IMG/VR virus record: IMGVR_UViG_3300008117_000062
Span: 1-61,907 of that record
Reading direction: 5' to 3' (one strand)
DNA length: 61,907 nucleotides
Source of the DNA: a virus
Part shown: piece after piece, positions 3,936 through 8,287 of the stretch
How positions within the stretch are numbered: the stretch's first letter is position 1
Layout of the letters: each line of letters opens with the position of its first letter
The notes under the pieces: model-generated
What the model saw: the letters and a program-made list of their open reading frames with translations, nothing else
What the model was told of the DNA's origin: nothing
The model's database searches: none
Made by a program: the position numbers and the translations under genes

Positions 3936-4324
3936 TAGACAACCTCCGTTGCGGGGCCAGTCGTTACAACCACGGTTTCGTCCTTCTCCTTCCCGTTGAT
4001 CTCCCATATGTACGCAGGACCAGTCCAATGGCAGTGCTTGAGGCCATTGCTCTCGTCATAAAGATTCCCGCGAATGTGGTTCAGGCAGGGTGCCTTCCAA
4101 CTTGCAGCGCGGAAGATGTCTCCCGAACGCTTGTCGATGAATCCCCATGCAGTCTTGGACGGGGATCCGTTGTTGTCGGATGCAACGACGATCCGCACAT
4201 ACTTGTAGCCCTCCTCATAGGTGGCTGTGCTTCTCTGTTGCGTTGCATTGCCTACGATTTCGTTCAGACTGCCCATGAATGTCTTGAATGCAGCCACGAA
4301 CCTGTGGTCGAGTTCCATCTTCAT
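3935..4324 (-). CDS. Conserved phage-type hypothetical protein, 129 aa
   Basis: The central segment KYVRIVV, then FIDKRSGDIFRAASWKAP, followed by RGN and a Tyr/Trp-rich end, matches the look of small proteins widespread in tailed phages, in which a short beta domain carries a 'DK-x-G-D-I-F-K/R-x-A-S-W-x-A-P' signature. Their function is not known to me. The start at 4324 has AAGGAG at good spacing. It is followed directly by the 90-aa gene with a 1-nt overlap. Confidence 0.65.
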   Translation of the reverse strand: MKMELDHRFVAAFKTFMGSLNEIVGNATQQRSTATYEEGYKYVRIVVASDNNGSPSKTAWGFIDKRSGDIFRAASWKAPCLNHIRGNLYDESNGLKHCHWTGPAYIWEINGKEKDETVVVTTGPATEVV

Positions 4325-5060: not shown

Positions 5061-5468
5061 ATGAAGATCTTTATTATGATAGATCCCGAAAAACACCGCA
5101 AGTTGATCGACTTTGCTCAGGCCAAGTGTCTTGAGATCCCGCGTCGGAAGCGGCATTGCAGCGTCATCCTGCACAAGAACAAGATCCTCGCAGTAGGCAT
5201 CAATAGATTCAAGACGCACCCGCTGGCTGTCAAGCACGGCTATCTCTTTGGAGAGGTTCACTCCGAACTTGATGCTTTCCTGAAATGCGACAGGAAGGAA
5301 GGTCTTGAACTATGGAACTTCAGGTTCAATAGTTTTGGGCAGATGCGAATCTCGCGTCCCTGTCCAAAGTGTCTCCCATGGTGTGCAAAGGTCTTTGACA
5401 AGATCTACTACACGATGGATGATGGCATCCATGAGTTTGACATGAGCATGGTTGAACTTTATTCTTAA
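5061..5468 (+). CDS. Zinc-dependent nucleotide deaminase (CMP/dCMP family), 135 aa
   Basis: The catalytic signature of the cytidine/deoxycytidylate deaminase fold is present: H67-S-E69 (zinc ligand plus catalytic Glu) and P100-C-P-K-C104 (the two zinc Cys). The family deaminates cytosine in free nucleosides or nucleotides, or in nucleic acid; the substrate cannot be read here. It is shorter than the second deaminase at 57651 and differs from it, so the phage carries two. The ATG at 5061 or 5076 is possible, and the latter suits the late promoter better. It ends convergently with the tape-measure gene, the two stops overlapping. Confidence 0.75.
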   Translation: MKIFIMIDPEKHRKLIDFAQAKCLEIPRRKRHCSVILHKNKILAVGINRFKTHPLAVKHGYLFGEVHSELDAFLKCDRKEGLELWNFRFNSFGQMRISRPCPKCLPWCAKVFDKIYYTMDDGIHEFDMSMVELYS

Positions 5469-7387
5469 CCTAATGCATATGCTGATTGATTTCTGAAAAT
5501 CAGTCCCTGTAAATCTGCTCCCGTTCTTTCTACGCTTGGGTTCGTAGATATTGCCGCATTAGATGTTGCATTGGTGTTGTTTACGGTAGTTGGAGCAATT
5601 ATGTTTACTCCACCACCAACTCCCTGACTTTGTCTACGCATGAAGTCCATTGCTATCATCTGTTGACTTGATGGCATCTGTGATGTAAAGGATGCAGCCA
5701 TCATTGGTTTGTTTCCAAATGAGGCATTTGATCCTAATGTTTGGGGTGCAGATGCATCTGGAACAAATCCGTTTCCAATAAACCAATTGCCGAGAGACTT
5801 GAAGAAGTCTTTCTGTGCATCAAGTGATTGAAGAACTTCATCGTAAATGTACTTAATACCACCACCGCCACCAGGAGTACCGACAGTATCTAAAAGTAGT
5901 TTTTGTCTTCTTTGTAGTTGTTCTTGTGTCAACTCTGATGCATCTGGTCCAAATAATGAATCATATACATCTGCAAAATAATTTCCGCCTGCAAGACCAA
6001 GTTCAGCACCAATATATGAACCAAGTATTGCTCCAGGTATTGCGCCGACCCCTCCAAATGGCGCACCAACCAATCCACCTAGTACAGCACCTATTTCACC
6101 CCCTACGATTCCACTACCCGTTGATATTCCTATTCTCTTATATTCAATTGCTTTTTGAGCATCAGTCATATCGCTCTGACTTACTTGATACGCTTGATAA
6201 GCACCAACACCACCCATCAGTAGAGGACCAACAAATGGAACTGCTTTGCCGAGAAATTTCAGCATCTTTGCTGCTTTTCCCGCTTGTTCAAATGATTCTG
6301 CCGCTCCTTGTAGCGGTATATTTCCTTCTGGTGTGACTATCTTTTGTCTTACCTTTAGACTTGCCTCTGTTGCACTCACACCAGCGTTTTTTGCTGCATT
6401 CTCCGCAGCAATCAACTCATTTTTAGCAAAACCAAGTCTTTCTTCAATGTTTTTGATTCTTATTTGATCTTGAACATCTGGACCTGTAGGTTTAGCGTTT
6501 GCCGTGTTGGTTGCAGTCTCCAATTCTTTAGAAATTGTGGTTACTTTGTTCTGAGCATCAATCTGATTTCTTAGCAATGTTCTTGCTTCATCATCTGTTA
6601 TTATTGGTGCTGTTTTTGTTCTTGTTGCCTCTGGCTCTGTCGTTGTTAACTTTGGTTTTGCTTCAATAGGTTCTGTTTTAGGAGTCTTTCCTATTTTTGC
6701 TCCTACTGTCCTATCACTTATAGATTTTGGAACTTTTATACCCAGCCTACGAAGAACCGCTGCTGCCGCACTGGCAGTAAGAGCAACTATGCCAGCGACT
6801 ATGCCAGCACCGAAGAGATTTGAAAGTAATCCACCACCGCCACCACCGCCACCAGCCTCTATACCAGACCTCAGACTTACGAAACCGCTTCCGCCAATAG
6901 AGAAGTATTTGTCAAATAACTCCTCCCAGAACTTTCTTTCTGATTTCCTGATTAATTCATTCTGTGTGGCAAGTTCACTGGCTTGTTCTTCCGCTGCAAG
7001 TATGCTTTTGTCTTTTTCTTTTGGTCCTTCATTTTCAAGAATATCATAGATTGCTATCACAGAATCTCGTATTTCACCCATCACACCATATGATTTTCTT
7101 CTGTTGTTTATTTCATCTACTTCTGCTCTTGTAAGTTTTCTACCAGTGTTTGGATCGCGTCCTTGGCTTGCGAATAGTTCTCGCTTCTTTATATCGGCTC
7201 TTTCAGCCAGTATTCCACCACCAAGCATTCTCAGCAATGGAGACTTTGCTGGAATGGACTGTAGAGATAGCATCGTTGACTTCAATGAAGTAGATACAGA
7301 CTCTTTGAGACTATACTTCACATACTTCATGAGTTCTATGTCATCAGTTTCCTGCATTTTTTGCTGTGTAAGTGATGGTAGTGCCAT
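5465..7387 (-). CDS. Putative tape-measure / hub protein (gp29-like), 640 aa
   Basis: Several hydrophobic Gly/Ala-rich segments (about residues 175-215, 375-400 and 420-470) are separated by long helical, probably coiled-coil regions, with a poly-Gly run near 175-184. That is the composition of tail tape-measure proteins, and the length is close to T4 gp29 (about 590). Its position right after the gp26-like gene and the small gp51-position frame is where tape-measure genes sit in other tailed phages. The protein begins MALPSL, like gp26 (MALPTL). I cannot align it to gp29 from sequence alone. Another hub-associated structural protein is the alternative. Confidence 0.55.
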   Translation of the reverse strand: MALPSLTQQKMQETDDIELMKYVKYSLKESVSTSLKSTMLSLQSIPAKSPLLRMLGGGILAERADIKKRELFASQGRDPNTGRKLTRAEVDEINNRRKSYGVMGEIRDSVIAIYDILENEGPKEKDKSILAAEEQASELATQNELIRKSERKFWEELFDKYFSIGGSGFVSLRSGIEAGGGGGGGGLLSNLFGAGIVAGIVALTASAAAAVLRRLGIKVPKSISDRTVGAKIGKTPKTEPIEAKPKLTTTEPEATRTKTAPIITDDEARTLLRNQIDAQNKVTTISKELETATNTANAKPTGPDVQDQIRIKNIEERLGFAKNELIAAENAAKNAGVSATEASLKVRQKIVTPEGNIPLQGAAESFEQAGKAAKMLKFLGKAVPFVGPLLMGGVGAYQAYQVSQSDMTDAQKAIEYKRIGISTGSGIVGGEIGAVLGGLVGAPFGGVGAIPGAILGSYIGAELGLAGGNYFADVYDSLFGPDASELTQEQLQRRQKLLLDTVGTPGGGGGIKYIYDEVLQSLDAQKDFFKSLGNWFIGNGFVPDASAPQTLGSNASFGNKPMMAASFTSQMPSSQQMIAMDFMRRQSQGVGGGVNIIAPTTVNNTNATSNAAISTNPSVERTGADLQGLIFRNQSAYALG

Positions 7388-7391
7388 TGAT

Positions 7392-7559
7392 TTACCTTGC
7401 TCTCATTTTTTCCTGCTGTTGCTTGAGTCTGTCATTCTCTTCCTTTATGTGTTGAATGAGAAGACTCATGTATACTTCCCTCTCCCACGGAATCATGTTT
7501 TCCAACTCTGTCAGCGAGTAGTGGTGATTTTGCATCATGGTGAAGTTGCACCGATACAT
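7392..7559 (-). CDS. Small tail-assembly frame in the gp51 position (55 aa if read alone)
   Basis: The open frame reads YSLTELENMIPWEREVYM followed by a Lys/Glu/Gln-rich helix, a pattern seen in small tail-chaperone extensions of myoviruses. The first ATG (7559) has only a weak GGGA upstream. The frame is open back to the T7 run at the end of gp26 and has protein-like codons before its first ATG, so it is probably made mainly as a -1 frameshift extension of gp26. T4 gp51 is much longer (about 249 aa) and I do not claim homology to it. Confidence 0.6.
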   Translation of the reverse strand: MYRCNFTMMQNHHYSLTELENMIPWEREVYMSLLIQHIKEENDRLKQQQEKMRAR

Positions 7560-7585
7560 GTTTCCCACATTGTCATGACAGAGTA

Positions 7586-8287
7586 TTAGATAAAAAAATC
7601 GCGAAGACCCTTATAGACTATTTTGAACTCATGGCTGCAACTCTTGCATTTGCATTCTATTTCCTTCTTCAGGTTTGGCATGTTCAAATAGAAACCCGAT
7701 ATCTTCTCAAACTGTGCCGCATTCATTGAATCTACAAACTGCTTTATCTCATCATCAGTAAAGTCTTTTCTGGTGTATGTCGTTTCCTTATCAAATACGA
7801 CATCTATAGAATCACAGATGAAGTTGACTATATTTTCAGAATTCATCTCCTTCATCTCTGGCTTTACATCACCCAAGGCTGGATATTTCAGAATCAGACC
7901 AACATCATCAGACAACATTATCTTATTGTTGTGTTCTGACGGGAATTCCACCTCCACATTTTCTAGATTTATCTCCACATCCTGCTTTGCATCACACTCT
8001 GGACATGTTGCCTTGAGAGTGACTGTCTCGCCCACTGATTTCGATCTTATCTTTGCGAACAGATATTCAAGATCGAATATAGGCATTTTCTTTGGGTCAT
8101 CGACTCCATCGACACAGATAGAGACGATATCGCACATGGCATCTATCATGTGTGTTTCATCTCCACTTTCAAGTGCCATGAACAGCAATTTCTGTTCCTT
8201 GACTAGGAACGGTCTGAATCTAGTCTTCTTCTTTGTTGATGGTATTATGATTGGGTATTTCGGTACGCTAAGTGTTGGCAGTGCCAT
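7586..8287 (-). CDS. 26: Baseplate hub assembly protein gp26
   Basis: The 233-residue protein, about T4 gp26 size (about 208), shows the gp26 pattern: MALPTL start, an early KKKTRFRPFLVKEQKLL segment, then FDLEYLFAKIRSKSVGE, and two Cys pairs (CPECDAK near residue 108 and CKCKSC near the end) that may bind zinc. In T4, gp26 helps assemble the hub around which the baseplate wedges close. The start at 8287 has TGGAG upstream; a longer in-frame reading to 8305 lacks support. Its last codons contain the slippery T7 run. Confidence 0.8.
   Translation of the reverse strand: MALPTLSVPKYPIIIPSTKKKTRFRPFLVKEQKLLFMALESGDETHMIDAMCDIVSICVDGVDDPKKMPIFDLEYLFAKIRSKSVGETVTLKATCPECDAKQDVEINLENVEVEFPSEHNNKIMLSDDVGLILKYPALGDVKPEMKEMNSENIVNFICDSIDVVFDKETTYTRKDFTDDEIKQFVDSMNAAQFEKISGFYLNMPNLKKEIECKCKSCSHEFKIVYKGLRDFFI
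7592..7598 (-). promoter_or_regulatory. Candidate -1 ribosomal frameshift site, T TTT TTT
   Basis: On the minus strand gp26 ends GAT TTT TTT ATC TAA. The heptamer T TTT TTT is a slippery site. A -1 shift there avoids the stop and continues as YLILCHDNVGNMYRC into the downstream frame to 7392. A direct search for a downstream stimulatory RNA structure was not possible. Confidence 0.6.

Follow-up and report, generated by a model that had tools for sequence, protein, structure and literature searches.

A probable -1 frameshift at the end of gp26 in a T4-like phage and its relatives

Does the gp26-type gene of a T4-like phage encode a single protein, or would ribosomes that slip back one base near its end produce a short and a long tail chaperone, as lambda does with G and GT? 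The question is raised by a locus in the window, that is, the whole stretch of 61,907 nucleotides analysed here (IMG/VR virus record IMGVR_UViG_3300008117_000062). A second contig (L002; 156,618 bases, of which 4018 were read) matches the window at 4018 of 4018 bases, and the window is likely to belong to a phage genome of 156 kb or more.

The gp26 gene and the open frame behind it

The gp26-type gene (7586–8287, minus strand) encodes the 233-residue short form (TAC-N) and matches PF12322 (E 2.1e-60) and phrog_150 (E 4.9e-62, covering phrog_150 positions 5–232). A preliminary description of this DNA had recognized the gene, and we correct its start to ATG 8287, which gives the 233 residues. 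Read directly, its 3' end is GAT (7600–7598), TTT (7597–7595), TTT (7594–7592), ATC (7591–7589) and TAA (7588–7586). The slippery heptamer T TTT TTT thus lies in the gp26 phase at 7598–7592 (minus strand), one sense codon ahead of the stop that terminates the short form (7586–7588, minus strand), as the preliminary description had read it. Across the whole window, 35 runs of six T were observed against 75 expected from dinucleotide shuffles, about half the expected frequency, as if slippery runs were avoided.

The AlphaFold2 model of gp26 (pLDDT 89.6) has gp26-type proteins as its top viral matches. When the model was compared with the PDB, the best phage-relevant match was the HK97 tail assembly chaperone 2ob9, a weak match (E 1.8) with a probability of 0.54, the highest among the listed solved structures. 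Searched by sequence, gp26 gave chance hits only among solved structures.

Past the slip site, the -1 frame runs from TAT (7592–7590) to a TAA stop (7394–7392) and holds 66 sense codons, or 67–68 by other ways of counting. This extension (TAC-C, 66 residues plus stop; 7392–7592, minus strand), which is mostly annotated as a separate 'gp51' or overlooked, had been described as an open frame containing NMIPWEREVYM, and it does code for protein. It is homologous to extensions in relatives and matches phrog_634, 'baseplate hub assembly catalyst', with an E value of 2.6e-26. It also aligns to phrog_150 positions 232–281, directly continuing the gp26 match, so that known protein families contain the two parts as one continuous stretch. 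The predicted fused product has 298 residues (232 + 66).

In the proposed mechanism, most ribosomes would terminate at TAA and release the short form, and a minority would move one base backwards at T TTT TTT, bypass the stop and add the 66 residues to give the long form. By analogy with lambda gpG and gpGT, the tape measure protein would be coated by short copies in large number and by a few long ones, whose extension would serve to recruit subunits of the tail tube. The likeness to lambda G/GT (Xu, Hendrix & Duda), compared here from sequence alone, lies in a predicted -1 slip close to where the short form ends, an extension without its own start and a place in the tail module directly ahead of a large tail gene; the slip heptamer is a different one and sequence homology between the two systems was not detected. 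Against the proposed slip, U_UUU_UUU is reported to shift less readily in E. coli than A_AAA_AAG (PMC5009743).

The extension had been placed just before the tape measure gene. This is plausible by position: the next gene (5465–7387, minus strand; 640 residues) is a probable tape measure or tail protein, and the next genes of some relatives have weak tape measure matches. Sequence comparison does not bear the assignment out, as the family matches of the next gene are weak and neither profile comparison nor a genome search matched it to T4 gp29.

Conservation of the slip site and frame relation in relatives

Relatives were gathered through the extension (61 viral loci, then 80 further viral and 42 genome-bin loci, plus annotated isolates), and gp26 stops and extension frames were each placed independently by tblastn. 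The extension stands in the -1 relation to gp26 in 192 of 192 relatives for which both parts were found. An in-phase T TTT TTN was present within 90 nt of the gp26 stop in 194 of 196 gp26 genes, as TTTTTTC (97), TTTTTTT (76), TTTTTTA (15) or TTTTTTG (6), and the distance from the first slip codon to the start of the stop is 9 nt in 131 of these 194 and 6 nt in 42. Other F-F or F-L pairs within gp26 are slippery in 12 of 126 cases. Related T4-like phages keep the slippery run as well as the open -1 frame; the preliminary description had suggested this comparison as a check. Homopolymers are error-prone, and the T run and open frame could have been coincidental, or a base could have been missing from a single long gene, but the equal geometry in more than 190 contigs and isolate genomes refutes this explanation, and the identity of contig L002 with the window over 4018 bases also speaks against it. 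We regard its probability as negligible.

The same fusion would arise by standard translation if transcriptional slippage on the T run inserted a base in some mRNAs. The window has a run of seven T, and bacterial slippage is known for runs of nine A or T (PMC5009743). Many relatives, however, have runs of just six or seven T, with T TTT TTC the commonest form. In all 194 genes with the heptamer, the codon ahead of the two slip codons ends in T, as tandem tRNA slippage needs, and the upstream anti-Shine–Dalgarno (anti-SD) pairing and downstream structure described below lie at ribosome-relevant distances that fit translation. Transcriptional slippage is highly improbable on these grounds.

The two parts could also be ordinary genes, with the small frame started at ATG 7559 (or GTG 7568) and translationally coupled to gp26. 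Such an explanation would agree with the annotation of 'gp51' from internal starts in records, and with the Vibrio phages K444 and D493, which have a TAATG overlap start and no homopolymer heptamer. In the window, the first ATG of the -1 frame (7557–7559, minus strand) is the candidate start for a separate gene, and its anti-SD pairing of -2.3 kcal/mol, compared with -5.9 at the gp26 ATG, agrees with the poor ribosome site ascribed to it earlier. Among 151 representatives, the first -1-frame ATG lies a median of 18 codons past the slip, and anti-SD pairing at least as strong as -5 kcal/mol was found for 5% of these ATGs versus 65% of gp26 starts. The homology of the extension in relatives begins at the slip codon, and N17 and F18 are among the conserved residues that precede most first ATGs. 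Conservation of an in-phase heptamer would have no reason if the genes were separate, and T4 gp51 holds both parts as one protein. We consider two separate genes very unlikely. An open, conserved -1 frame that lacks a proper start, as found here, is a mark of the G/GT-type chaperone frameshift.

The frame relation, the heptamer and the T4 fusion described below strongly support the earlier proposal that a -1 frameshift yields a G/GT-type pair in which gp26 is the short form. We infer from this comparison that the T4-like phage very probably makes a short and a long tail chaperone from gp26 by a -1 slip on T TTT TTT.

The arrangement was found in Kyanoviridae (including a Pelagibacter phage), Emmerichvirinae (AP1, VmeM-32), Emdodecavirus (phiM19) and Menderavirus (BUCT608) and, more distantly, in a 469-kb jumbo Sinorhizobium phage. 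In Phosso (jumbo Sinorhizobium phage; L075:3139-3369), TTT TTC GAA TGA is kept alongside an overlap start, ATGA. A phrog_634 match was no longer found for its 77-codon -1 frame; either frameshifting or the overlap start could operate there. K444 and D493 (L071:3190-3410, L074:3270-3480) have a single PF12322 gene, and the TAATG serves as overlap start for the extension. They possibly represent a third route to the chaperone pair, or a weaker slip at the P site only. Forty-two T4-like phage contigs (L158-L199) lie in genome bins of bacteria and archaea, with Flavobacteriales and Euryarchaeota among the labels, which probably reflects binning contamination or infected cells.

Candidate stimulators of the slip

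Nine nucleotides upstream of the heptamer, the window carries a weak Shine–Dalgarno (SD)-like AAGGG (7608–7612, minus strand) at a position that is enriched family-wide. Across the family, anti-SD pairing 7–12 nt upstream of the heptamer is stronger than in protein-preserving synonymous shuffles (z about -14), and there is little or no such signal 25–39 nt upstream. The window's own SD-like site, at -3.8 kcal/mol, is at the null level.

Downstream, folding predicts an RNA stem-loop (7501–7590, minus strand) in which ACUCUGUCAUGA (7584–7573) pairs with 7517–7505, the core helix starting 7 nt past the heptamer. The 90 nt from 7589 to 7500 fold at -31 kcal/mol, with z values of -5.5 against dinucleotide shuffles and -5.6 against protein-preserving shuffles. 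Downstream structure is also in excess family-wide, with a mean z of -1.2 among the 151 representatives, 25% of which lie below -2 and 12% below -3. Relatives do not keep the window's helix: on average 5.67 of its 12 pairs form in them versus 6.09 in the null, so downstream structures appear to be lineage-specific. The strength of the SD-like element and that of the downstream hairpin do not correlate (rho -0.05). These are statistical signals, and the codon-level shuffles behind them leave some factors uncontrolled.

An upstream SD-like element, a slippery heptamer and a downstream stem are also the components of the -1 cassettes of dnaX and IS elements, and the predicted stem-loop of the window lies, as in the dnaX cassette, a few nucleotides past the slip site. 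The locus differs from these cassettes in its U-type heptamer, its variable stems and the weak SD-like element of the window phage. On this statistical support, the upstream element and the downstream RNA structure may set slip efficiency. We stop just short of favouring a broader model, in which the T4-like chaperone frameshift would be a dnaX-like cassette whose SD-like element and fast-changing structures jointly set the ratio of short to long form. Phages would then reach a similar ratio via different stimulators, and in the window phage the downstream structure would do the work. The statistical signs of dnaX-like stimulators, both the upstream anti-SD pairing and the downstream RNA structure, are possibly new.

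T4 genes 26 and 51 and the annotation of 'gp51'

T4 gp26 and gp51 are both members of PF12322. T4 gp51 spans phrog_150 positions 13–280 plus phrog_634, and T4 gp26 stops at phrog_150 position 235. When aligned, T4 gp26 stops directly past the FF position, which is the slip position, and T4 gp51 crosses it unbroken into NYSLNSISKMIPAER, the counterpart of HYSLTELENMIPWER; T4 gp51 consists of a gp26-type domain and the extension in a single frame. The fused protein thus occurs in nature, in one piece, as T4 gp51, and what is called 'gp51' in cyanophages is only its tail. The small frame of the window had been assigned the gp51 position. Its role as a C-terminal extension stands, but its equivalence to T4 gp51 does not, because T4 gp51 is the whole long form.

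The window and T4 share the PF12322 family, T4 gp26 being the short form and T4 gp51 the long form. They differ in that T4 has two divergent genes, with the heptamer absent from both gene 26 and gene 51, whereas the window phage has one gene that is probably frameshifted. Two PF12322 copies are present in T4 and one in each of 14 other records (12 with the slip signal and the two Vibrio phages without it). In the 156,618-base contig (G001), identical with the window along 4018 bases, one PF12322 copy is present and the two-gene arrangement of T4 was not found. A PF12322 short form and a predicted long form with a C-terminal extension, as at this locus, make up a T4-like TAC pair. From these comparisons, a duplicated pair would stand in T4 where the others frameshift, and the duplication may have followed the frameshift or the order may have been the reverse. 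With a duplicated pair in place of a frameshift in T4, a fused product in the other phages is very likely.

The 2022 abstract of Vladimirov, Gautam and Davidson reportedly describes conserved frameshifting in several T4-like groups, with T4 relying on genes 26 and 51. This work (Virology 566:9-15) is cited in PMC10885494 for T4-like phages with one short and one fused long gene, and in PMC12846349 for frameshift signals of the poly-T kind in the TAC-N genes of such phages. The T4-like TAC pair of Vladimirov et al. involves the same genes as the window, and both the poly-T slip signals and the T4-type two-gene solution are attributed to that work. By these citations, the T4-like TAC pair was published in outline in 2022, so that our finding is correct but largely known, and the window a further case. 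Elsewhere, T4 gp26 and gp51 appear as chaperones of hub assembly (PMC3004832), and the G-T frameshift was called widely conserved except in T4 in 2016 (PMC5009743).

Records start 'gp51' internally or leave the extension frame unannotated. The extension is annotated from an internal start in P-SSM2 and Syn1, and is unannotated in S-CAM1, S-WAM1, DSL-LC03 and ACG-2014h (L063, L065, L201 and L202). In the records examined, the 'gp51' of cyanophages and marine relatives would be the end of a frameshifted chaperone and not an independent gene, and these records would therefore be wrong or incomplete at this locus. On the same reading, T4 genes 26 and 51 find a simple explanation as duplicates that stand in place of a frameshift, and the statistical signs of stimulators provide testable targets for how the ratio of short to long chaperone may be set.
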